Shown here piece by piece: positions 3,101-52,205 of a stretch of DNA of 64,000 bases. The stretch lies in contig JAHCKM010000004.1 of NCBI GenBank assembly GCA_026125795.1, forward strand, positions 372,001 to 436,000, written 5' to 3'. The stretch comes from Burkholderiaceae bacterium. GTDB lineage: Bacteria > Pseudomonadota > Gammaproteobacteria > Burkholderiales > Burkholderiaceae_C. The stretch's first letter is position 1. Each line of letters opens with the position of its first letter. The notes beneath the pieces are model-generated. The model saw nothing but the letters and a program-made list of their open reading frames with translations, did not search any database and was not told the origin of the DNA. The position numbers and the translations under genes were made by a program.

Positions 3101-3541
3101 ATGGCCATGAACCCAAGCACGAGCGGCGATGGCGCCGGCCGCGCAGCAACCGGCAACCGCCCGATCGCCGGCTTGTTCTCAGACCTGTGGCGCGAGACGA
3201 CCACGCTGGTGCACGACGAAATGGAGCTGGCCAAGGTCGAGCTGACGCAGCGGGTCAGCGATGCCGGACGCGGCGCCGGCGCGGTCGCGATCGGCGGTGC
3301 GATCCTCTTTGCTGGCGTGCTGGTGCTGCTCGGCGCCGCCGTGGCGGCTCTCATGATGATGCTGCCGCCGCAGGTGGCACCGTGGTTGGCGCCGCTGATC
3401 GTCGGCGCCGTCGTCTGCATCGTCGGCGCCATCGCGCTGCGCAGCGGCCGGCAGAGGCTGAAGGCCCGCAACCTGGCGCCGCAACGCACCCTGGAGTCGC
3501 TGCGGCAGGACCGACAACTCGCGCGGGAGCACCTGCAATGA
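3101..3541 (+). CDS. phage holin family / DUF1469 (YqjE-like) membrane protein
   Basis: 146 aa. It has an N-terminal amphipathic part typical of the family (LFSDLWRETTTLVHDEMELA), two closely spaced transmembrane helices at about residues 63-85 and 93-115, and a charged C-terminal tail. This fits the DUF1469 / putative holin-superfamily-III group, which is chromosomal and has no shown lysis role. The start follows the previous gene by 9 bases. Its stop overlaps the start of the next gene (ATGA), indicating translational coupling. Confidence 0.8.
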   Translation: MAMNPSTSGDGAGRAATGNRPIAGLFSDLWRETTTLVHDEMELAKVELTQRVSDAGRGAGAVAIGGAILFAGVLVLLGAAVAALMMMLPPQVAPWLAPLIVGAVVCIVGAIALRSGRQRLKARNLAPQRTLESLRQDRQLAREHLQ

Positions 3542-4173
3542 CCACCCCTGCACGGACCAACGGGCAACGTCCCCCCGAAGAGATCCAGGCCGAGATCGAA
3601 CGCACCCGCGGCGAGCTCGACCGCACGCTGAGTGCGCTCGAGGAGCGCCTGACGCCGGGCCAGCTGGTTGATCAGGCGTACGGCTACCTCAGGCGCAGCG
3701 GCGCCCGCCAGTACTTCGAGCACCTCGGCGAGTCGGTGCGCCGCGACCCGATTCCGCTCGCACTCGTCGGCATCGGCCTGGCGTGGCTCATGGTGGCCGA
3801 TCGCCAACGTCCGCTGCAGCCCCGCGAGCCGTCCTCGGGCGGGATGCGGGAAACGATGTCGCACGGCGCGCGGCGGGCCGCGGAATCGGCGCATGCGGTG
3901 CGCGACGCCGCGTCGCAAGCGGCGCTGCGGGCGCGCCACCAGGCCGAGCGCGCGCGCAGCGGCTACCACCGCCTTGTGGAGGAGCAGCCGTTGGCACTTG
4001 GCGCCGTGGGGCTGGCGATCGGCGCGCTGCTAGGCGGCATCGCCCCCGGATCGATGCCCGACGACGCTCCGAATGCCGCGGACGACGCTTCGAGCGACGA
4101 CCGTGCTGCACGCGCAGGGGCGGCCGGGGCAGGGCCGCTGGACTCCTCGGGCGCGGACGATCCCGTCGTGTGA
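3538..4173 (+). CDS. DUF3618 domain-containing membrane protein
   Basis: 211 aa. The N-terminal motif RPPEEIQAEIERTRGELDRT with a predicted helix is the DUF3618 hallmark. Two short hydrophobic stretches follow (IPLALVGIGLAWLMV about residue 72, LALGAVGLAIGALLGGIAPG about residue 152), separated by an alanine/arginine-rich helical linker. The C-terminal 35 residues are acidic and low complexity. It is coupled by ATGA overlap to the holin-like gene, forming a three-gene unit. Function is unknown; envelope stress or surface roles are only guesses from family context. Confidence 0.8.
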   Translation: MTTPARTNGQRPPEEIQAEIERTRGELDRTLSALEERLTPGQLVDQAYGYLRRSGARQYFEHLGESVRRDPIPLALVGIGLAWLMVADRQRPLQPREPSSGGMRETMSHGARRAAESAHAVRDAASQAALRARHQAERARSGYHRLVEEQPLALGAVGLAIGALLGGIAPGSMPDDAPNAADDASSDDRAARAGAAGAGPLDSSGADDPVV

Positions 4174-40127: not shown

Positions 40128-42179
40128 ATGTCGCTGCCCGAAGCCCAGATCACCCGGTTCCGGCGCTTCCTGCGCGATACACAAGGCCTCGAGTTCGACA
40201 CCTACGACGCGCTGTGGCGCTGGTCGGTGACGGACCTGGAGGCGTTCTGGCGTTCGATCTGGGAGTTCTTCGACGTCCGCTCGCCGACGCGCTGGACGCG
40301 CGTGCTCTCGAGCCATCAAATGCCTGGCGCGCGCTGGTTCGAGGGCGCCCAGGTCAACTATGCGCAACAGGTGCTGCGCCACGTCGAAGAAGCCCATGCG
40401 GGCGGACACGCGGCGATCCTGTTCGCCGACGAGGCGCTGCTGGCGCAAGGGCGCATCGAGACGCTGTCGTGGCCCGACCTGCGGCGCCAGGTGGCTGCAT
40501 GCGCCGCCGCGCTGCGGCGCCAGGGCGTACGACGCGGCGACCGCGTCTGCGCCTACCTGCCGAACCGGCCCGAGACCGCTGCGGTGTTTCTCGCGTGCGC
40601 GAGCATCGGCGCGATCTGGTCGATCTGCTCGCCCGACATGGGCCCGGTGGCAGTGCTTGACCGCTTTCGCCAGATCGAGCCCAAGGTCTTGATCGCCTGC
40701 GACGGCTACCGCTACGGCGGTGCGGCGCACGACCGGCGCGGCGTGCTGCGCGAGCTGGTCGAGCAGTTGCCGAGCGTGCAGCACCTGGTGCTGCAGTCGT
40801 TGCTGGGCACCCCAGCCGATGTCGGCGGCGTGCTGCCGGCGCGCTGCGCGGTACACGCGCTGCCCGCCTGGCTGCAGGGCGATGTCGCGTTCGAGCCCGA
40901 ATGGCTGCCATTCGACCATCCGCTGTGGGTGGTGTATTCCAGCGGCACCACCGGCTTGCCCAAGCCGATCGTGCACAGCCACGGCGGCGTGATGCTCGAG
41001 GGCCTGAAGCTGATGACCCTGCACAACAACATCGCGCCGTCGGCCGTCAGCGGGGATCGCTTCCACTGGTACTCGAGCACCGGCTGGATCATGTGGAACT
41101 GCCAGATCGGCGCGCTGCTCGGCGGCACCACGATCTGCCTGTTCGACGGCAGCCCCGCGGGTCCGTCGAAGGCGCCCGACTGGACCACGCTGTGGCGCTT
41201 CGTGGCGCTCACGCGCACCAGCTTCTTCGGCGCCGGCGCCGCGTTCTACGCGTCGTGCCTCAAGGCCGGGGTGTCGCCGAAAGACGTGGCCGACCTGTCT
41301 GCGCTGCGTGGGATCGGCTCCACCGGGTCGCCGCTCGCCCACGAGTGCTACCGCTGGGTCTGGGATCACTGCCCCAAGGTCGACGGCCGCGACATCTGGC
41401 TCACGCCGATGAGCGGCGGCACCGACTTCGCCGGCGCCTTCATCGCCGGGCTGCCCACGCTGCCGATGGTCGAAGGCGAGATGCAATGCCGCTGCCTCGG
41501 CGCGGCCGTGGAGGCCTGGAGCGAGCCCGACGCAAACGGCCGCGGCCGCAGCCTGATCGACGAGGTCGGCGAGCTGGTCTGCACCCAGCCGATGCCGTCG
41601 ATGCCGCTGTACCTGTGGGGCGACCACGATGGCTCGCGCCTGAACGACAGCTATTTCGACATGTACCCCGGCGTCTGGCGCCACGGCGACTGGATCCGCA
41701 TCGTGCCGCACCCCGAGAGCGGCGCGGCCGGCGCGATCATCTACGGGCGCAGCGACGCCACCATCAACCGGCACGGCGTGCGCATGGGCACGTCGGAGCT
41801 GTACCGCGCCGTTGAAGCGCTGCCCGAGGTGCTCGACAGCCTGGTTGTCGACCTCGAATACCTCGGCCGCGAGAGCTGGATGCCGCTGTTCGTGGTGCTG
41901 CGCGAGGGCCACGCGCTCGACGACGCACTGACCCAGCGCATCAAGGCTGCGGTGCGTGCCGCGCTGTCGCCGCGCCACGTGCCGAACCACGTGTTCCAGG
42001 TCGCGGCGATCCCACGCACGCTGTCGGGCAAGAAGATGGAACTGCCGGTCAAGAAGCTGCTGATGGGCGCCGACCCGGCGAGTGTGCTCAAGCGCGACGC
42101 GATGGCCAACGCCGACAGCGTGGATTGGTTCATCGAACTGGCGCACCAACGGGGAATAAACCCTGCCGAGCCCGCGTAA
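40128..42179 (+). CDS. acetoacetate--CoA ligase
   Basis: 683 aa. Activates acetoacetate to acetoacetyl-CoA. ANL motifs WVVYSSGTTGLPKPIVHSHG, the acetoacetyl-CoA synthetase block FHWYSSTGWIMWNCQIGALL, GGTDFAGAFIAGLPTLPMVE, YGRSDATINRHGVRMGTSE and C-terminal lysine RTLSGKKMELPVKK. Length and N-terminal MPGARWFEGAQVNYAQQVLR region match the family. It lies directly behind the four binding-protein genes. It could serve ketone-body or hydroxybutyrate use. Confidence 0.93.
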   Translation: MSLPEAQITRFRRFLRDTQGLEFDTYDALWRWSVTDLEAFWRSIWEFFDVRSPTRWTRVLSSHQMPGARWFEGAQVNYAQQVLRHVEEAHAGGHAAILFADEALLAQGRIETLSWPDLRRQVAACAAALRRQGVRRGDRVCAYLPNRPETAAVFLACASIGAIWSICSPDMGPVAVLDRFRQIEPKVLIACDGYRYGGAAHDRRGVLRELVEQLPSVQHLVLQSLLGTPADVGGVLPARCAVHALPAWLQGDVAFEPEWLPFDHPLWVVYSSGTTGLPKPIVHSHGGVMLEGLKLMTLHNNIAPSAVSGDRFHWYSSTGWIMWNCQIGALLGGTTICLFDGSPAGPSKAPDWTTLWRFVALTRTSFFGAGAAFYASCLKAGVSPKDVADLSALRGIGSTGSPLAHECYRWVWDHCPKVDGRDIWLTPMSGGTDFAGAFIAGLPTLPMVEGEMQCRCLGAAVEAWSEPDANGRGRSLIDEVGELVCTQPMPSMPLYLWGDHDGSRLNDSYFDMYPGVWRHGDWIRIVPHPESGAAGAIIYGRSDATINRHGVRMGTSELYRAVEALPEVLDSLVVDLEYLGRESWMPLFVVLREGHALDDALTQRIKAAVRAALSPRHVPNHVFQVAAIPRTLSGKKMELPVKKLLMGADPASVLKRDAMANADSVDWFIELAHQRGINPAEPA

Positions 42180-42187
42180 GCCTGTGG

Positions 42188-42421
42188 TGTGGACCCCCAA
42201 GCTCACTCCGTTCGCTGCTCCTCGAGGGGGCGTTCAGTCGGCTCGGGAGCGGCCCTGCGCCGACTTGTGGACCCCCAAGCTCACTCCGTTCGCTGCCCCC
42301 CGAGGGGGCGCTCAGTCGGCTCGGGAGCGGCCCTGCGCCGACTTGTGGACCCCCGAGCTCACTCCGTTCGCTGCCCCCCGAGGGGGCGCTCAGTCGGCTC
42401 GGGAGCGGCCCAGCGCCGACT
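42188..42421. repeat. three tandem copies of a 78-bp repeat
   Basis: Copies start at 42188, 42266 and 42344 with exactly 78-base period, each with TGTGGACCCCC, AGCTCACTCCGTTCGCTG, palindromic core CCCCCCGAGGGGG (CTCCTCGAGGGGG in copy 1), and TCAGTCGGCTCGGGAGCGGC. The length is a multiple of three and one frame is open throughout into the sigma gene. The core resembles that of the repeats at 31535-31681. Confidence 0.9.
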
Positions 42422-43837: not shown

Positions 43838-45433
43838 ATGCCGACGCTGCCTGTGGCCGCCGCACGTGCGCGTTCGCGCGTGGCCGCCGCACACCGATTG
43901 TTCGTCGTCATGGTGCTCGGCTTTGCGTCGGGCCTGCCGCTGGCGCTGACCGGCCAGGCGTTGCAGGCCTGGTTGAGCGTGGAGGGCATCGACATCGCGA
44001 CCATCGGCTTCCTGAGCCTGGTCGGCCTGCCGTACACGTTCAAGTTCCTGTGGGCGCCGTTGATGGACCGCTTCGAGCTGTTGCCGCAGCTCGGCCGCCG
44101 GCGCGGCTGGCTGGTGGTGACGCAGCTCGGGCTTGCGCTGACGTTGCTGCTGCTGGCCGCGACGCCGCCGAAGCAGTCGCTGCAGGCCTTTGCGCTGCTG
44201 GCGCTCGCGGTGGCTTTCGTGTCGGCGTCGCAGGACGTGGTGATCGATGCCTATCGAACCGATCTACTGCCCGCCAGCGAGCGCGGCCTCGGCTCGTCGC
44301 TGAACGTGCTGGGCTACCGGCTGGCCATGATCGTGTCGGGCGGCGTTGCGCTGATCTGGACCGATCCGACGCAAGGCGGCGGCTGGACCTGGAGCGAGGT
44401 CTACCGCACGATGGCCTGGCTGATGGTCGGCGGCGCGGGGTTCTCGCTGCTGGCGCTGCCGCGGCTGGCGCCGCTGCAAGGGCCGCGCCCGGTGGCGCGC
44501 AACGACGTGTTCGGCTTTCTTGCCGTGCTCGCCGCGGTGGCGCTGGGCTATGTGCTGACGCGCGAGTACGGCGCGGCCATCGCGCGCATCATGCTGTCGC
44601 CGTGGCTGGCGGGCAGCACGCTGAGCCCGGCGCTGCAGGCGCGCTGGATCGATCTGGCCACGCTGCTGCTCGGCATCGCGTTCACGCTGCCGCTGGCAGC
44701 CTTCGCGGCCCGCAAGGCGCGCTTTCAAACGCTGCTGTCGGGCTTGTCCAACTACTTCGCGCAGCCCGGCGCAGCGGGCTTCCTGGTGTTCATCGTGCTG
44801 TACAAGCTCGGCGACGCGTTTGCCGGCTCGCTGATGACGCCGTTTCTGCTGCAGGCCATGGCCTACAGCTCGGCCGAAGTCGGCGTGGTCAACAAGATCA
44901 TCGGGCTGTGGCTGACGATCGGCGGCGCGCTGCTCGGCGGCGCACTGATGCTCAAGCTCGGGCTTTGGCGCGCGCTGATGTTGTTCGGCGTGCTGCAGAT
45001 GGCCAGCAACGTCGGGTTCTGGTGGCTGGCCAGCGTCGGGAAGGGCCAACTGCCGGGTCTGACGATTCCCGCCTTCGACCTCGGCATCGTGGAGCTGGCG
45101 CAGGCCACGCCCGTCGACGGTGGCCTGCTGCTGGTGATCGCCGCCGAGAACATCTCCGGCGGCATGGGCACGGCGGCGTTCGTGGCGCTGCTGATGGCGC
45201 TGTGCAACCAGCGGTTCACCGCCACCCAGTTCGCGCTGCTGAGCGCATTTGCGTCGGTCGGCCGCGTGTGGGTGGGACCGCTGGCCGGTGTGCTGGCCGA
45301 GGCCATCGGCTGGCCGACCTTCTTCATCGTCTCCACCGTGCTGGCGGCGCCGGCGCTGCTGATGTTGTGGTGGATGCGCTCGCCGGTGCTCGCCCTGGAG
45401 CCGCCGCCGCGCACGGGCGCGGTCGACGACTGA
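43838..45433 (+). CDS. ampG: AmpG-like muropeptide MFS transporter
   Basis: 531 aa, about 12-14 transmembrane helices. MFS proteins of the AmpG type import anhydro-muropeptides for cell-wall recycling. Family motifs GFASGLPLALTGQALQAWLS, PYTFKFLWAPLMDRFELLP and the ASQDVVIDAYRTDLL segment. It is longer than E. coli AmpG (about 490 aa). Stand-alone promoter possible, 43 bases after the anti-sigma gene. Confidence 0.85.
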   Translation: MPTLPVAAARARSRVAAAHRLFVVMVLGFASGLPLALTGQALQAWLSVEGIDIATIGFLSLVGLPYTFKFLWAPLMDRFELLPQLGRRRGWLVVTQLGLALTLLLLAATPPKQSLQAFALLALAVAFVSASQDVVIDAYRTDLLPASERGLGSSLNVLGYRLAMIVSGGVALIWTDPTQGGGWTWSEVYRTMAWLMVGGAGFSLLALPRLAPLQGPRPVARNDVFGFLAVLAAVALGYVLTREYGAAIARIMLSPWLAGSTLSPALQARWIDLATLLLGIAFTLPLAAFAARKARFQTLLSGLSNYFAQPGAAGFLVFIVLYKLGDAFAGSLMTPFLLQAMAYSSAEVGVVNKIIGLWLTIGGALLGGALMLKLGLWRALMLFGVLQMASNVGFWWLASVGKGQLPGLTIPAFDLGIVELAQATPVDGGLLLVIAAENISGGMGTAAFVALLMALCNQRFTATQFALLSAFASVGRVWVGPLAGVLAEAIGWPTFFIVSTVLAAPALLMLWWMRSPVLALEPPPRTGAVDD

Positions 45434-45502
45434 CGGCGCCGCCTGTGCGGCCTGCCTAGAATTGCCGGAACCCGGCACGCCGTGTGCCCTCGAAAGACCG
45501 TG

Positions 45503-46417
45503 ATGAGCAGCGAACTGACGGTTCACGCCACGATCGACGCGCCCGCGTTGGCCCACGGCCGGCGTTGCCGCTGCGCGCTGCACGGCCGTCGGCTGTTCAC
45601 CGGCGGCTTGCTGGCGGCTGCCGCGCTGCCGGGCACGGCGCTGGCGCAGATCCCCGAGTGCAAGCGCTCGAGCTTCACCAAGGTGGTGTCGGCCGAGCAG
45701 CTCGAACAGGCGGCCAACCAGCAATACCGCCAGATGCTGCAGCAGGCGCAGAGCAAGAAGGCGCTCGGCCCGAAGGACCACCCGCAGGTGGTGCGGCTGC
45801 GCACCATCGCCGAGCGCATGGTCCCGTACACGGCCGACTGCAATGCCGACGCACGCAACTGGAAGTGGGAGGTCAACCTGCTCGGCTCGCAGGAGCTCAA
45901 CGCCTTCTGCATGCCGGGCGGCAAGATCGCCTTCTATTACGGCATCCTCAGCAAGCTGCAGCTCGACGACGACGAGGTGGCCGCTATCATGGGCCACGAG
46001 GTCTCGCATGCGCTGCTGGAGCACGCGCGCGAGCGCATGGGCAAGACCACCGCCACGCGCCTGGGCATCGAGCTCGGCGCCGCGCTGTTCGGGCTGGGCA
46101 ATGCCGGCCGCATGGCCGGGGATCTTGGCGGCCAGCTGCTGACGCTGAAGTTCAGCCGCGACGACGAGTCCGAAGCCGACGCGCTCGGGCTGATTCTCGC
46201 GGCCAAATCCGGCTACAACCCGCGTGCCGGCGTCACGCTGTGGCAGAAGATGCTGCAGGCCAGCAAGGGCGCGCCGCCGCAATGGCTCAGCACCCACCCG
46301 TCGGGCGAAGCCCGCATCCGCGAGATCGAGAACCGGCTGTCGGTGGTGGAGCCGATCTACGCGTCGGCGCAAAAGCCGCCGCAGCGGTTTGGGCCGCCAC
46401 CCAAATCGGCCAGCTGA
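45503..46417 (+). CDS. M48 family zinc metallopeptidase
   Basis: 304 aa. Zinc motif HEVSH at residues 165-169 within IMGHEVSHALLEH and a distal glutamate in DDESEADALGL. The N-terminus has GRRLFTGGLLAAAALPGTALA, a twin-arginine-like signal, so the enzyme is probably periplasmic. ATG at 45503 is chosen; GTG at 45482 would extend it. Loip/BepA-like quality control of outer-membrane proteins is a plausible role. Confidence 0.9.
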   Translation: MSSELTVHATIDAPALAHGRRCRCALHGRRLFTGGLLAAAALPGTALAQIPECKRSSFTKVVSAEQLEQAANQQYRQMLQQAQSKKALGPKDHPQVVRLRTIAERMVPYTADCNADARNWKWEVNLLGSQELNAFCMPGGKIAFYYGILSKLQLDDDEVAAIMGHEVSHALLEHARERMGKTTATRLGIELGAALFGLGNAGRMAGDLGGQLLTLKFSRDDESEADALGLILAAKSGYNPRAGVTLWQKMLQASKGAPPQWLSTHPSGEARIREIENRLSVVEPIYASAQKPPQRFGPPPKSAS

Positions 46418-46532: not shown

Positions 46533-48365
46533 ATGGGGATGAAAGAGACAAGCGTCGGCAGCAGCATGACGACCGATTCAAGGGAAGGGGAACCCGGTTG
46601 GCCGCAGCTGCACCGAGTGCGGCGCGCCATTGTGGTTGTCGACATGGTCGAGTCGGTGCGACTGATGCAGCAGCACGAGGACGACGTGATCGATCGCTGG
46701 CGCCGCTTCGTGCACGAGGTGCGCACCCAGGTGCTGCCGCAGCACGGCGGCCGCCTGGTGAAGAGCCTGGGCGACGGCATGCTGCTGGAGTTCCAGAACA
46801 TGCGCTCGGCGATGGCCGCCGGCTTTGAAGTCCAGTCGCGCGTCGGGCCCTATAACGAGCAGATCCCGGCCGATGCGCGGATCCTGCTGCGGCTGGGCGT
46901 GCACGCGGGTGACGTGGTCAGCGATTCGCTGGACATCTATGGCGCCGGCGTCAACCTCGCGGCGCGGCTGGCCGGTGCCGGGTCGGCGGGCGGCATCGTC
47001 GTCTCGGCCGAGGCGCGCGACGAGCTTGCCGATGGGCTCGATGCGCAGTTCGAGGACCTCGGCGACCTGTACCTGAAGCACGTGGCGCAACCGGTTCGGG
47101 CCTTCACGGCCCGCGCGGCGCGAGCGCCTTCGCGCGAGGACCCGCCCATGCCGCCGGCCGAGGACTTGCGGCCGGTGCTGGTGATCATCCCGTTTCAGTG
47201 CCGCCGGGGTGACGACGCGCAACACGTGCTCGGCGACCTGATCGTCGACGAGCTGACGGCGTTGTTGTCGCGCGTGTCGGAGTGGCGCGTGATTTCCAAG
47301 CTCTCGGCATCGGCGTTCGCCAGGCGTGAGTTCCGCATGCACGAGCTGCAGGCCACGCTGAAGGCCGACTACGTCGCCTACGGCGCGTACTCGCTGGACG
47401 GCGATCGCGTGCGCCTGCAGCCGCAGCTGGTCGACTGCCACAGCGGCGAGGTGCTTTGGGCCGACGCGCTGACCGAAGACCAGCGTGCCGTCCTGAACGG
47501 GTCTGCCGAGGTGTTCACGACGATCAGCCACGCGATCGCCTCGGCGTTGTTCGGGCACGGCATGCGCCGCGTCGCGGCCCTGCCGCTGCCGCGGTTGGAC
47601 AGCCATGCGCTGCTGCTGGCCAGCGTGGCGCTGATGCACCGCGCCCGACGCAGCGAGTTCGAGAGCGCGCGCGAGGTCATCGAGCACTTGCAGGAGCGCC
47701 ATCCGCGCGCGCCGCAGCCGCATGCGTGGCGCGCCAAGTGGCATGTGCTGCGCGTGGTGCAGGGTTGGTCCCAGGACACGGTGCGCGATGGCGACGAGGC
47801 CCTGACGGCCGGCAACCGGGCGGCGGATTCCGACTCGTCGTCCTCGCTGGCGCTGTCGATGCAGGGCTTGGTGCAGGCCTACCTCAAGCACGACTTCGAC
47901 GCCGCCGCCGACTGCTACGACGAGGCGCTGGCGCTGAACCCGAACGAGTCGCTGGCCTTGCTGCTCAAGGGCGTGCTGCACGCGTTTCTCGGCGAGGGCG
48001 GACAGGCCTATCCGTTGACGCAGCATTCGTTGACGCTGTCGCCGTTGGACCCGATGCGCTATTTCTACCTGTCGCTCAGCGCCGCGGCGGCCATCTCGGC
48101 GCGGCGCTACGACGAGGCCATCGACCTGGCCACGCGGTCGCTGATGGCCAACCGGACGCATTTGTCGACCTACCGGTCGCTGGCGATCGCGCAGTCCTTG
48201 AGCGGGCGCGTCGATGAGGCGCGCAGCACCGTGCAGGAGTTGCTGTGCTACGAGCCGGGGTTCACGGTGAGCCGGTTCCTGCAGCGTTATCCCGGGACCG
48301 CGCTGGCGCCGGCGTACGCGCACCAGCTCGCCGACGCCCTGGCGCAGGCGGGTTTGCCGCGATGA
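46533..48365 (+). CDS. class III adenylate/guanylate cyclase - TolB-like - TPR protein
   Basis: 610 aa, no signal or membrane segment. N-terminal cyclase domain (about residues 30-195) with the metal-binding aspartate D37 in VVVDMVESVRLMQQHE, second metal site SLGDGMLLEF, and the transition-state motif NLAARLAGAG. Middle TolB-like/FlgO-type domain (VLVIIPFQCRRGDDAQHVLG). C-terminal TPR-like helices (AADCYDEALALNPNESLALL). Such proteins are thought to be cytosolic sensors or regulators. It opens the unit leading to the GYA-repeat enzyme and protease; the gap to the next gene is 43 bases. Confidence 0.87.
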   Translation: MGMKETSVGSSMTTDSREGEPGWPQLHRVRRAIVVVDMVESVRLMQQHEDDVIDRWRRFVHEVRTQVLPQHGGRLVKSLGDGMLLEFQNMRSAMAAGFEVQSRVGPYNEQIPADARILLRLGVHAGDVVSDSLDIYGAGVNLAARLAGAGSAGGIVVSAEARDELADGLDAQFEDLGDLYLKHVAQPVRAFTARAARAPSREDPPMPPAEDLRPVLVIIPFQCRRGDDAQHVLGDLIVDELTALLSRVSEWRVISKLSASAFARREFRMHELQATLKADYVAYGAYSLDGDRVRLQPQLVDCHSGEVLWADALTEDQRAVLNGSAEVFTTISHAIASALFGHGMRRVAALPLPRLDSHALLLASVALMHRARRSEFESAREVIEHLQERHPRAPQPHAWRAKWHVLRVVQGWSQDTVRDGDEALTAGNRAADSDSSSSLALSMQGLVQAYLKHDFDAAADCYDEALALNPNESLALLLKGVLHAFLGEGGQAYPLTQHSLTLSPLDPMRYFYLSLSAAAAISARRYDEAIDLATRSLMANRTHLSTYRSLAIAQSLSGRVDEARSTVQELLCYEPGFTVSRFLQRYPGTALAPAYAHQLADALAQAGLPR

Positions 48366-48408
48366 CGCGCTCGCCGGGCTCCGGCACCGATCGTTGGGGA
48401 GAGATGCG

Positions 48409-49566
48409 ATGAGCTACTTTGCGGGGTACGCCGGCTACGCAGGTTACGCGGGTTATGCCGGCTACGCGGGATACGCGGGATACGCCGGCTACGCGGGTTA
48501 TGCCGGCTATTCCGGCATCGCGCCGCTGACCGACACCAGCGCCAGCCCGTTGGGCGCCGACGCATTGCTGCGCTCGCGCGAGGCGCTGTACGTGCCGCCG
48601 AGCGGGCCCGCAGCATGGCAGGGGCAGTGGAGCGCGCCCAAGCGCTGGGATACCGACGACGTGGCCAACCCGCCCGCAATGCTGCCGCCAACCGAGGATC
48701 ACGCCAACCTCATGCGCTGGGACATGCGCATTCGCGCCGCGCTGCTCGACGTGGAGCTGCTGGGCCAGCTCGAGTTCACGCAGCCGGACCCGGAGACGCT
48801 GCAGCTTTCCAGCCGTGCGGCCAGCGGTGCCCTGGTGAAGATCACGCGGCCGTCGCGCTCGGTTTTCGAGGCGCAGCTCGAGTGGGTCGAGAGCTGGTCC
48901 ACGCGGCGCGAGGAACGCCTGGGTGAGATCGTGTCGCAGCAGCTGCCGCAGGTGGCGCACTGGGCGTCGCTGCTGCAGCTGACGCCGCAGCGGCATCGAC
49001 ACACGCTGGAGCTGCTGGAGACGGCGCTGCGCTTCGCGATGCTGGTGGTCATGCGCTTCAAGCACGCGCTGTGCTGTCCACGGCCGAGCGAGTATTCGCC
49101 GAACGTGCAGCCGCTGATCCCGGTGCCCAACTACTCCGCGCTGCCCAGCGGGCATGCCACGGAATCGCACATGGCCACGCACCTGCTGCTGGCGCTGACC
49201 GCGCAGTCGCCGGGTTCGGCGCTGGCGCAGCAGTTGCGCCGCCTGGCGGCGCGCATCAGCGACAACCGCGTGGTCGCCGGCTTGCACTTTCCGGTCGACA
49301 GCGCGGCCGGGCAGGTGCTGGGCATCGCGTTGGCCACGTATTTCACGGCGCTGGCCACGCAACAAGCGGCCACCGAAGGCTGGACGTTCATCGGCACCGA
49401 GGCCAGCGCGACGCCCGACTGGAATCCCGAGGCGATCTATGGCGCCGCGCTGCCCGACCACCTGCAGCGAGATGCCCGTGTGCTGACCGATCCCGCTGCT
49501 GCGCCGATGCTGCGCCAGCTGTGGAAGCTGGCGCGTGCCGAGCAGATCGACATGGGATTTCGCTAG
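48409..49566 (+). CDS. PAP2/vanadium-haloperoxidase-fold protein with N-terminal GYA repeats
   Basis: 385 aa from ATG 48409 with GGGGAGA site. Residues 6-35 are nine Gly-Tyr-Ala triplets and one Gly-Tyr-Ser (48424-48513). The catalytic core carries K218 and RP at 225-226 (K-x6-RP), PSGH at 246-249, and R287-x5-H293-x3-D297, a complete PAP2 / vanadium-dependent haloperoxidase site; which activity (phosphatase or halide oxidation) cannot be told. No signal peptide or transmembrane segments, unlike lipid phosphatases, which favours the soluble haloperoxidase-like branch. Eleven bases from the next gene. Confidence 0.85.
   Translation: MSYFAGYAGYAGYAGYAGYAGYAGYAGYAGYAGYSGIAPLTDTSASPLGADALLRSREALYVPPSGPAAWQGQWSAPKRWDTDDVANPPAMLPPTEDHANLMRWDMRIRAALLDVELLGQLEFTQPDPETLQLSSRAASGALVKITRPSRSVFEAQLEWVESWSTRREERLGEIVSQQLPQVAHWASLLQLTPQRHRHTLELLETALRFAMLVVMRFKHALCCPRPSEYSPNVQPLIPVPNYSALPSGHATESHMATHLLLALTAQSPGSALAQQLRRLAARISDNRVVAGLHFPVDSAAGQVLGIALATYFTALATQQAATEGWTFIGTEASATPDWNPEAIYGAALPDHLQRDARVLTDPAAAPMLRQLWKLARAEQIDMGFR
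48424..48513 (+). repeat. ten-unit 9-bp coding repeat (Gly-Tyr-Ala/Ser)
   Basis: Ten units of GGN TAY GCN (last TCC). Synonymous changes occur between units (GGG/GGC/GGT/GGA; GCC/GCA/GCG; TAC/TAT), whereas the amino acids stay fixed, so the peptide has been kept after amplification. Confidence 0.9.
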
Positions 49567-49576
49567 CGAGGCGCCC

Positions 49577-49918
49577 ATGAGCTGGCGTCGACTCGATCTG
49601 AGCGATTGCGCATCGCTGGCCGGGGCCTTGCACGTCGATCGCCTCGACGTGCACGCTGTTTGGGCCTGCATCACCGGCTATCGAGGTTATCAGCGACCGC
49701 CGGGCAGGCGCCTTCCGATCGTTCTGGAGCTCGCGCAGGACGTCACTGCCGAGCAGCGCGTGCGCATCGCCCGGTGGGTCAACGTGCCGAACGTGTACGA
49801 CCCGGCCAGCGAACGGTTCTGGACCGGCTGGGTGGATGAAGCCCATCTGCCGCTGCTCAGCGCCGAGCCCGGCGTGGCCCGCTGGCGCTTCGGCATGCCG
49901 CAGAACCGCCAGGCATGA
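49577..49918 (+). CDS. 113-aa protein, possible detached S8 prodomain
   Basis: No family is recognised with certainty. The C-terminal two thirds (RLPIVLELAQDVTAEQRVRI ... FWTGWVDEAHLPLLSAEPGV ... WRFGM) read like the inhibitor-I9 or analogous prodomain of subtilases, with strand-helix-strand and a final strand ending before the mature protease. The stop overlaps the S8 gene start (ATGA), the distance 11 bases from the PAP2-like gene. A folding chaperone or inhibitor acting in trans is inference. Confidence 0.6.
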   Translation: MSWRRLDLSDCASLAGALHVDRLDVHAVWACITGYRGYQRPPGRRLPIVLELAQDVTAEQRVRIARWVNVPNVYDPASERFWTGWVDEAHLPLLSAEPGVARWRFGMPQNRQA

Positions 49919-51465
49919 AGGATTCGCTCGCCCCGGCTGCGCCGGTGCCCTGCGTGGGCATCATCGATCACGGCATCGCCTTCGCGCACGCCAAGTTCCG
50001 GTGGCTCGGCAGGCCGGCGCAGACGCGTGTGCTCGCGTTCTGGGATCAGGATCCCGGCGCGGCCGGGCGTGTTGCACCCTGGTCGGGTGTCCCGGAGTTC
50101 GGATACGGCGCGCAGCTGTCCGCGCTGGACATTGACGCGGCCATCGCGCGGCACCCGAACGACGAGGCGGCGCTGTATCGGGAGCTCCAGTACGAGCCGG
50201 CGCGCAAGCGCCATTCGCACGGCACGCATGTGCTCGATCTCGCCGCCGGTTGCCCCGATCCGCTCAAGCCGCCGCGCGAGGAGGCCGATCCATCGGACCG
50301 CGGTGCGTCGCAGGCGCCGATCGTCGTCGTGCAGATGCCGCACCAGCCGGTCAAGGACACCTCGGGCGCGTCGCACGGCGTGCACGTGCTCGACGCGCTG
50401 CACTACATCGCCGCGCGAGCACCGGCGGGCCGGCCGGTCGTGATCAACCTGAGCGACGGAGCCTACGGTGGTCCGCACGACGGTCAGTCGATGTTGGAAT
50501 GCGGCATCGACGACTTTTTGCGGCGCCATGCCCACGTTCATCTCGTGCTGGCGGCGGGCAACGCGCACGAGGCTCGCCTGCACGCCAGCTGCCCCGACGC
50601 GGGTCTGGCTGCGGGCGAGGCCTGTTCGTTCGACTGGCAGATCCTGCCGGAGGACGGTGCCGACAGCTTGTTGGAGGTCTGGCTGGACGACCGGTACGCC
50701 GCCGGCGAGGTGTCGCTGCAGTTGACCCCACCGGGCCGCGCTTCGGCCGTGCAGGTGGTCTTGGGCGACAGCTGGATGCTCGAGCCGGGCCCCGGCGCGG
50801 TGGCGGCGGCCGTGATCTCACGCATCGATGCGCCCAATCGCTGGCTGCGCAGCATGTTCCTGGTCGCGGTGGGCCCCACCGTGCGGTCGCTGCGCGAGCG
50901 TGCCGCCCCGCACGGGCTGTGGCGCGTGACGGTCACCAACGAGACCGTGGCTGCGCGGCCGGTGCGGGTGGATGCCTGGGTCGAGCGCGGCGACTCGGCC
51001 CTGGGCGATCGGCCGCTGAAGCGCCAGTCGATCCTGTGCGCCGATGCGCTCGTGCCCGGCGCGGTCCGTGGCGAGCGCACGCTGGGCAGCCTGTCCGGCA
51101 GCGCGGAGGCCATCGTCGCCGGGGCAAGGTACCGGCGCGGCGTGGCCTTCAGCGGGCCGCGTCCGGCGGCGATGACCGCCCAGGCGCGCTACTCCTCGCG
51201 CGGTCCCGGTCGCGCAGCGCCGGCGGCCTCCACCGGCCCCGACTTTCTGGCCCCCGGGGACGAGGCACCGAACGCACCCGGGCTGACGGCCGCCGGAAGC
51301 TTGTCGCACAGCGCATGCCGCCTGGGCGGGACCAGCATGGCGGCGCCGATCGTGACCCGACGCATCGTCAACCTGCTGTGCGGCGACGCGCCGCCGGCAG
51401 GTCGTGAGGCGTTGCGCCAGGCGTTGGCACGAGGACTCGACAGCGAGGTACCGCCCCGTTCCTAA
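49915..51465 (+). CDS. S8 (subtilisin-like) serine peptidase
   Basis: 516 aa, no signal peptide. Catalytic aspartate D18 in GIIDHGIAF, histidine H102 in HSHGTHV, oxyanion asparagine in LAAGNAHEAR and serine in GGTSMAAPI. About 250 residues with beta-rich character separate the Asn from the Ser region, an insertion also known from CspA-like clostridial and related cytosolic S8 proteins. The N-terminus lacks a prodomain, and the preceding gene may supply it. It overlaps the convergent PAS gene by 4 bases. Confidence 0.9.
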   Translation: MKDSLAPAAPVPCVGIIDHGIAFAHAKFRWLGRPAQTRVLAFWDQDPGAAGRVAPWSGVPEFGYGAQLSALDIDAAIARHPNDEAALYRELQYEPARKRHSHGTHVLDLAAGCPDPLKPPREEADPSDRGASQAPIVVVQMPHQPVKDTSGASHGVHVLDALHYIAARAPAGRPVVINLSDGAYGGPHDGQSMLECGIDDFLRRHAHVHLVLAAGNAHEARLHASCPDAGLAAGEACSFDWQILPEDGADSLLEVWLDDRYAAGEVSLQLTPPGRASAVQVVLGDSWMLEPGPGAVAAAVISRIDAPNRWLRSMFLVAVGPTVRSLRERAAPHGLWRVTVTNETVAARPVRVDAWVERGDSALGDRPLKRQSILCADALVPGAVRGERTLGSLSGSAEAIVAGARYRRGVAFSGPRPAAMTAQARYSSRGPGRAAPAASTGPDFLAPGDEAPNAPGLTAAGSLSHSACRLGGTSMAAPIVTRRIVNLLCGDAPPAGREALRQALARGLDSEVPPRS

Positions 51466-51920
51466 GGGCCGACCTTGCGTTTACCGAGCAGGACCAGCGC
51501 GCCGGCGCCGCCGGAATCGCAGGAGTCGGGCATCGGGACCACGGTCAGGCGCAGGCGCTGCTCCGCCTCGCCCAGCACGGCGCTACCGCGCCGGCGCCGC
51601 ACGCATGCATCGGCCAGCGCCTGGTGCAGCGGTACCACGTCGCGCGGGCTGCGACTGCGCAGTGTGCGGCCGAGCAACTGCAGCGGATGCTCCGCATCGA
51701 GTTCGGCGCGCGCCATCGGGTTGGCGTGCAGCACGTGCCCGTCGTCGGCGACGAGCAGCAGGCCATGGTCGAACTGGTCGAGCATTGAGGCGAGCGCGGC
51801 GGCGAGCGCAGGCGGTCGCGCGGGCCGCCCGGCGCCGTGTTGGAGACCCAGGCGCGGCGGCGCCGCGCTGCGTGTGAGGGCTGTTTCGTTGCCGTGCAGG
51901 CCGGCTGGCAAGTCGAGCAT
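51462..51920 (-). CDS. PAS-domain protein, possibly a truncated LuxR-type regulator
   Basis: 152 aa from ATG 51920 (open frame extends further). A PAS-like domain at about residues 45-150 (FDHGLLLVADDGHVLHANPM ... LRLTVVPMPDS ... GALVLLGKRKVGP). In betaproteobacterial PAS-LuxR proteins this block continues directly into a helix-turn-helix. Here the frame ends immediately after KRKVGP, so the DNA-binding domain is missing. It converges on the protease. Confidence 0.6.
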   Translation of the reverse strand: MLDLPAGLHGNETALTRSAAPPRLGLQHGAGRPARPPALAAALASMLDQFDHGLLLVADDGHVLHANPMARAELDAEHPLQLLGRTLRSRSPRDVVPLHQALADACVRRRRGSAVLGEAEQRLRLTVVPMPDSCDSGGAGALVLLGKRKVGP

Positions 51921-52205
51921 GGATCGTTCCGGGACCGCGGCCGACAGGCGCGACTGGGGCCAAGAGTAGACGTCGGCGCCCCGTCCGAGCCGGACCGATT
52001 GCCGCGCCGCCGTGTGACGCATTCACATCGCCTGGCCCCATGCCGCTTGCAGGCGGGCACGGGGCCACCCGCAGCCCCGGCATGACCCCCGATGGAGGGA
52101 CCCCGCCCGGTGGCCCTCGATGTTCCGCCAGCCGGGCGATGGTGCCGGCACGGCGTGGCGTCGACGATTCGCTGCACACGTCACCCACCCGCCGGAGCCG
52201 AAACG
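51921..52205. other. intergenic gap without recognised features
   Basis: 285 bases upstream of both the leftward PAS gene and the rightward 76-aa gene; no clear hairpin terminator or consensus promoter was found by eye. Confidence 0.4.

Follow-up and report, generated by a model that had tools for sequence, protein, structure and literature searches.

The window analysed here is a 64,000-nucleotide (nt) stretch of the genome of a Burkholderiaceae bacterium (GenBank assembly GCA_026125795.1, contig JAHCKM010000004.1, positions 372,001 to 436,000). It contains a small operon encoding a class III nucleotide cyclase with tetratricopeptide repeat (TPR) domains, an enzyme of the PAP2 superfamily that bears a tandem amino acid repeat array at its N-terminus, and a subtilase of family S8. 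The cassette is real and conserved, though composed otherwise than first drawn in an earlier note on this DNA, whose observation is partly confirmed and whose interpretation is partly supported; it is widespread and apparently undescribed. In homologues the repeat unit of the array changes together with the C-terminal TPR segment of the protein encoded just upstream, and the cassette is best read, as far as sequences can tell, as a putative receptor-ligand specificity locus that is pherotype-like in its logic and includes a protease.

A conserved cassette of three genes

Comparison of 89 non-redundant loci (the duplicates L118, L121 and L125 having been removed beforehand) reveals that cyclase, PAP2 and S8 genes are adjacent, in this order and on one strand, in 73 of them: 68 were called by script and five by inspection, namely the window locus, L003, L006, L124 and L133, which the script had missed owing to its start-codon rule or a split S8 gene. 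Of the other 16, seven have no S8, three are truncated where the contig stops and six, all alphaproteobacterial, are organised in a different way. The median gap between the cyclase and PAP2 genes is 33 nt. The earlier note had proposed a four-gene system, to be given up if homologous neighbourhoods lacked two of the genes; such neighbourhoods are mostly not what is seen, L105, where PAP2 stands alone, being an exception. The trio stands, whereas the fourth member, a 113-residue protein described as prodomain-like, is not a member in its own right: it does correspond to a prodomain, that of the S8 protease, split off from the S8 gene in the window.

A search of a genome collection of 84,980 species with the PAP2 protein yielded 31 loci in one scan. 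Matches were found in 83 of the 399 genomes scanned from the window's family (E ≤ 1e-10; many of the weaker ones are probably ordinary PAP2 proteins), in 22 of 398 genomes of a phylum-wide scan (E ≤ 1e-18), and in 52 of 67 genomes from the genus of genome G126 (E ≤ 1e-50), which is referred to below as the test genus and is not the window's own. Plasmid records matching PAP2 number 36 in all.

The repeat array is exact within proteins and diverse between them

The window array consists of ten exact copies of Ala-Gly-Tyr (GYA) at residues 5–34, encoded by six versions of a 9-nt unit, and this repeat pattern occurs nowhere else in the window's genome. In the predicted PAP2 structure, residues 1–42 have no confident fold (predicted local distance difference test score, pLDDT, below 50). 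An N-terminal array is a trait of the family, being present in 106 of 123 non-redundant PAP2 loci with 67 different units (66 if AGGAGG is merged with AGG; the DF unit was called by script alone), such as GYA, GGA, SGGF, ENA, NSF and ASLWPR; twelve of the 67 lack Gly. Among the first 89 loci, 74 have an array, built from 52 units of 1–8 residues with a median of 8.25 copies, and in 67 of the 74 all whole units are identical. Between the units of one array the median synonymous p-distance (pS) is 0.73 and the median nonsynonymous distance 0 (74 arrays). Recent duplication is ruled out as the source of homogeneity for most arrays because synonymous sites are near saturation; seven of the 74 are young, with pS of 0.16–0.38 (L111, L088, L134, L108, L109, L016 and L010).

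Between lineages the unit changes readily. Of locus pairs with 60–70% identity of the PAP2 core, 57% have a unit in common, against 2% of those with 30–40%, and close relatives often differ by one residue that is swapped in every copy, e.g. SGGA and SGGI at 83% core identity. Five genomes carry two different arrays each: G309 (L078, L080), G109 (L084, L131), G503 (L148, L149), G735 (L155, L156) and G950 (L228, L235). A repeat that is obliged to match itself and yet is free to be almost anything is under a very unusual constraint.

The C-terminal TPR segment follows the repeat unit

The sharpest test of which partner tracks the unit came from 49 loci of the test genus, where units are mostly of the form (S)GGX, X being F, Y, V, A, T, M, I, L or S. 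L019, L259 and loci without a cyclase or S8 match were left out, and the S8 alignment (A3) was restricted to proteins of 560–800 residues. The variable residue X changed at least 28 times among the 49 loci (shuffled mean 33.9). Columns of full-length alignments were scanned for association with X against tree-restricted permutations that keep the number of X changes. In the TPR segment, from position 481 of the cyclase HMM match to its end, 23 of 86 variable columns exceed z = 3 (95% of the null 2, P 0.002). The remaining blocks of the cyclase protein give 5/96, 2/108 and 4/125, those of PAP2 5/72, 1/65 and 2/82, and the protease 4/539 with a null mean of 2.6; neither S8 nor its propeptide co-varies with the unit beyond chance. 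The nearest neighbour of a locus by its TPR C-terminus shares X in 38 of 49 cases, compared with 8–16 of 47–49 for neighbours chosen by other blocks.

Broader samples were compared as well. Over 53 loci, the distance between units is related, over and above the remaining blocks, to that between TPR parts (partial r 0.23, 0/300 permutations) and PAP2 cores (0.31, 0/300), and is not related to the cyclase, TolB or S8 parts. Over 59 loci that exclude the test genus, the C-terminal TPR segment (TPR-C) retains a partial r of 0.17, with 4 of 500 permutations as high; the N-terminal TPR, cyclase and TolB parts show no correlation with the unit. In 26 broad disjoint pairs a graded contrast is significant (Spearman 0.48, p 0.013).

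Two hypervariable segments inside a conserved operon

Close pairs of loci show where the divergence lies. In 24 disjoint pairs, the ratio of TPR-C divergence to that of the remaining operon is 1.46 where X is the same (n = 6) and 3.56 where it differs (n = 18; p 0.011), and none of the other blocks falls below p 0.17. Among the 15 least-diverged pairs (median divergence of the rest ≤ 0.121), TPR-C differs by 3–17% in six same-X pairs and by 31–53% in nine different-X pairs, with nucleotide identities of 77–95% and 56–67%, respectively. In the nine different-X pairs the other eight blocks are mostly 75–96% identical, the lowest value being 65%, and PAP2 1–100, which lies directly 3' of the array, is 75–91% identical.

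Sliding identity was followed in six different-unit and two same-unit pairs, picked by hand from 19 and 5. All six different-unit pairs have a trough over the TPR C-terminus, which in five extends over the array too. L221 (GGF) and L224 (GGI) are 77–99% identical over 4.9 kb, except for 43–61% at about nt 1,500–1,960 of the aligned operon, a stretch reaching from around codon 500 of the cyclase match to where the array stops. Similar troughs are found in L215/L258 (SAGV and SGGY units; broader), L235/L257, L219/L220 and L238/L115 (PAP2 start 71–80%); that of L236/L246 stops short of the array. The same-unit pairs L214/L255 and L243/L251 have no such trough, L214/L255 dipping at the PAP2-S8 junction. 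Hypervariable segments between conserved flanks, as a pherotype-type locus has them, are thus present in this one genus, which is not the window's; by analogy they would be ligand and receptor.

As a separate observation, L246 lacks a counterpart to some 800 nt of the L236 S8 region (nt ~3240–4050 of the aligned operon).

The protease accompanies the array

A wider set of 156 loci was read for proteases, with S8 counted anywhere in the fetched stretch; it includes a few repeats of one locus (e.g. L019 and L234), and L162 and L163, array-less by script, were counted as array-bearing after reading (a period-2 NK array). All 140 array-bearing loci have a protease: 133 an S8 by hidden Markov model (HMM), three an S8 by Pfam, one an S8-like protein by motif only and three a Peptidase_A4 (two by Pfam, L159 by likeness to those two). 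The S8 gene of L160 lies upstream of the cyclase. Of the 16 array-less loci, ten have S8, five have no protease, and L106, whose array is degenerate, encodes a protein with the motif HEFGH; that all five protease-less loci fall among the 16 has a chance of 6e-6 if loci are independent, a figure that is only indicative because the loci are related. Neither the HEFGH protein nor the S8-like protein of L158 has a Pfam assignment; both were identified by eye.

The protease itself is an S8 subtilase with an I9-type propeptide, having the catalytic triad and an N-terminal propeptide domain, the latter a separate open reading frame (ORF) in the window. Among homologues, 72 of 77 called S8 ORFs encode at least 550 residues, and Asp, His and Ser of the triad are present in 74/76, 76/76 and 76/76. 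In Foldseek, judged by first and last aligned residues only, the S8 model of L017 aligns from residue 47–48 with unautoprocessed pro-Tk-subtilisin and with CspC/CspA. The S8 gene of L133 (genome G340) is likewise split into two overlapping ORFs.

Catalytic cores

The PAP2/vanadium haloperoxidase superfamily is marked by the signature K-x6-RP, PSGH and R-x5-H-x3-D, and haloperoxidases proper carry out vanadate-dependent halide oxidation. The complete active site claimed for the window enzyme is kept in nearly all homologues: K in 88 of 89, and R225, H249, R287, H293 and D297 in all 89, S247 (70/89) being the exception. The PAP2 model is structurally nearer to acid phosphatases, a likeness that does not decide on halide oxidation. 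The array had been considered as an in-cis substrate of halogenation, a candidate rejected because Tyr, Trp and His are all absent from many units. Class III cyclases are recognised by a metal-binding Asp pair, an Asn and an Arg; the corresponding window residues D37, D81, N141 and R145 are kept in 71, 70, 71 and 74 of 78 aligned proteins.

Proposed mechanism and alternatives

We propose, as the more probable reading, that the array and the TPR C-terminus are ligand and receptor and that the protease acts on the array. The array would be a multi-copy ligand or tag that fits into the C-terminal TPR groove of the cyclase, whose gene lies immediately upstream. Units would be identical within a protein because each has to fit one groove, and they would differ between lineages because groove and unit change together, so that array DNA and TPR-C DNA may form a hypervariable specificity cassette inside an otherwise conserved operon, as in pherotype loci. 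Cutting of the array by the co-encoded protease could free units or sever a tether, and could couple proteolysis to an output of cyclic nucleotide or, where a winged helix stands in for the cyclase, to transcription. Physical binding, array cleavage, signal direction, cyclic AMP as product, the PAP2 substrate and peptide export, like the nucleotide regulation and cytosolic location suggested in the earlier note, are points of inference. If the array is a TPR ligand, the family offers dozens of natural matched ligand-receptor pairs, one or two residues apart, with which the specificity of TPR-peptide recognition could be decoded. It would then also represent a novel type of recognition locus in bacteria of soil and water, among them Hydrogenophaga, Bradyrhizobium and Phaeobacter, which include strains that are easily studied in the laboratory.

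The same receptor-ligand core is shared by an intracellular alternative, which we regard as a serious possibility though not the favoured one: the array would bind PAP2 to its own cyclase, through many sites and a dimeric cyclase, the protease would release it, and nothing would be exported. Unit diversity would then stem from the need to avoid cross-talk, or from competition against a parasite factor that imitates the unit. No secretion signals were seen by eye, the PAP2 and S8 models resemble soluble enzymes, and in each of the five two-array genomes the arrays differ, all of which fits such a tether or latch. On the other hand, purely internal pairs are not expected to retain many divergent alleles in one genus, one scan of viral contigs found no phage relative, and PADLOC returned weak matches only. 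A more tentative extension of the proposal is a pherotype or kin-recognition system of Proteobacteria, in which the protease would cut the array into lineage-specific peptides that the TPR-cyclase of related cells with a matching cassette might read, whereas that of strains bearing a different cassette would not.

Several observations weigh against array and TPR-C as ligand and receptor, the main caveat being their physical linkage: as the TPR C-terminus and the array adjoin on the DNA, much co-variation is expected from recombination alone. In the 49-locus scan a shift is also seen at the 19 synonymous sites of TPR-C (mean z 0.77, P 0.002), no single site exceeding 3, and mild enrichment is found for PAP2 1–100 (5/72, P 0.010), for TPR 321–480 (5/96, P 0.022) and, within the same protein, for the cyclase domain (4/125, P 0.035). 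PAP2 151–260 correlates with the unit more strongly than TPR-C over the 59 loci (partial r 0.36, 0/500), the same/different-unit contrast is not significant in the 26 broad pairs (p 0.23), and the helical periodicity of co-varying columns is not significant (P 0.24 at 100 and 0.12 at 110 degrees). Moreover, the operon shows no recognisable signal peptide and no protein for export or import, and nine of 78 cyclases lack D37 or R145 (L029, L090–L093, L098 and three others); most of these keep TPR and array, which indicates that the receptor part can persist when the enzyme is lost.

Taken to its end, linkage would mean that a segment of about 450 nt is a hotspot of recombination or hypermutation in which TPR end and array travel together without binding. 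The short gap between the two genes, the synonymous shift and the enrichment of PAP2 1–100 agree with this, but we consider it unlikely: the amino acid signal is far above the synonymous one (23/86 against 0/19 above z = 3), the PAP2 start on the other side of the array is better conserved than TPR-C in the nine different-unit pairs, and arrays are exact despite saturated synonymous sites.

Rather improbable, in our judgement, is the view of the earlier note that the array is mainly a recognition or processing site whose unit fits the S8 pockets and reflects protease specificity. The link between protease and repeat that it drew holds in so far as every array has a protease nearby and the five loci without one are all array-less; the co-varying partner, however, is the TPR segment, S8 columns do not exceed chance, and similar arrays adjoin the unrelated Peptidase_A4. 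A structural low-complexity linker or condensate-forming tail devoid of specificity would suit the mostly Gly-rich units and the lack of a confident fold, but with twelve Gly-free units, compositions from GRN to DQG and an exactness unexpected in a linker it is very improbable.

Comparison with known systems

In agreement with the earlier note, which knew of no system of this make-up, the combination of genes and array was not found described in the open-access library searched, subscription papers and preprint servers lying outside the search. RRNPP receptors (Rap, PlcR) bind short peptides through TPR domains and thereby switch an output, and subtilases mature some Phr peptides. The cassette differs in that its output is a cyclase or winged helix and in that no separate small pro-peptide gene was seen in a survey of ORFs above 90–100 residues, the ligand candidate sharing one reading frame with PAP2 at those loci that were read. 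The Csp germination subtilases (CspA/B/C) have unrelated partner genes, host and target, and differ from the window protease, whose propeptide has its own ORF. Class A acid phosphatases and vanadium haloperoxidases share fold and catalytic signature with the cassette PAP2, which differs from them by the array, an extra N-terminal region and the lack of a visible signal peptide.

A parallel in logic is the pherotype locus comQXPA of Bacillus, which has communication groups and in which variability is greatest at the end of ComX that encodes the signal and in the N-terminal domain that ComP turns towards ComX (PMC4008528). Adjacent genes with variable segments, putative ligand and receptor in the cassette, are common to both. 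By their Pfam and NCBIfam matches the window genes belong to other families than the components of comQXPA and agr, none of them a Com family. The receptor candidate is here a TPR-cyclase and the ligand candidate a tandem array fused to an enzyme. Diversifying nucleoside triphosphate (NTP)-dependent conflict systems likewise have operons with proteases and hypervariable parts; in a word search of that source, neither haloperoxidase nor tandem repeat was found, and the sole mention of S8 stands beside NucA and trypsin domains (PMC7159879). The PADLOC matches to known anti-phage defence systems are weak and of single genes only (PycC 4.2e-4, subtilase 3.2e-7, IetS 2e-4). A phage origin was rejected on the viral-contig scan mentioned above.

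The window locus and its surroundings

The four ORFs were found where the earlier note had placed them, all pointing the same way, the first two gaps measuring 43 and 10 nt and the last junction being an ATGA overlap (Table 1); their Pfam matches are, in order, Guanylate_cyc with TPR, PAP2, none and Peptidase_S8. As to a single transcription unit, a sequence scan found no promoter-like sites inside the operon and no terminator-like sites above chance, which is weak evidence for one transcript.

Table 1. Positions in the window of the cassette, its segments and the convergent regulator remnant
Feature	Position	Strand	Remarks
Class III nucleotide cyclase with TolB-like region and TPR domain, 610 aa	46533..48365	+	Pfam Guanylate_cyc 1.6e-7, several TPR models; proposed receptor/output protein
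C-terminal TPR segment, residues ~507–608 (HMM match 481–end)	48051..48356	+	Approximate, placed by alignment of homologues; co-varies with array unit in homologues
PAP2-superfamily enzyme with N-terminal array, 385 aa	48409..49566	+	Pfam PAP2
Array, 10 exact Ala-Gly-Tyr copies	48421..48510	+	Proposed multi-copy ligand of TPR domain
S8 propeptide (I9-like) domain, separate ORF	49577..49918	+	Within one long S8 ORF in most homologues
S8 subtilase, Csp-like	49915..51465	+	Pfam Peptidase_S8; Asp/His/Ser all present
PAS-domain regulator remnant, convergent	51462..52022	-	LuxR/GerE-like helix-turn-helix of homologues absent here

The PAS regulator stops at the very end of the window S8 gene, its homologues running on into a LuxR-like helix-turn-helix; this truncation, together with the split propeptide, hints at a local rearrangement of the window copy. 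A PAS-LuxR-like regulator lies near 38 of the 89 loci and is often convergent; the GerE match in homologue L002 is below the Pfam cut-off (E 0.006). At alphaproteobacterial loci the TPR protein often begins, by eye, with a SARP/winged-helix-like region in place of the cyclase, and Pfam gives TPR only for L162 and no match for L026. In some of these loci, such as L026, L027, L031, L155 and L157, the TPR gene lies on the other strand. The winged-helix form is present in 21 Phaeobacter plasmid records, with the array unit NSF.

Upstream, at 43838–46417 of the window, are a major facilitator superfamily (MFS) transporter, which recurs in 14 of the 89 loci, and an M48 peptidase (17/89). They turn up either next to the cassette or next to cyclase-PAP2 pairs that have no array (L099, L104), suggesting a fixed chromosomal site. 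Regulators of the Crp family that bind cyclic nucleotide monophosphates adjoin these array-less, protease-less pairs (L099:4341–5027 and L104:3338–3970). Further upstream, at about 42150–42400 of the window, three near-identical copies of ~78 nt start an ORF that by eye resembles a sigma-70-type factor.

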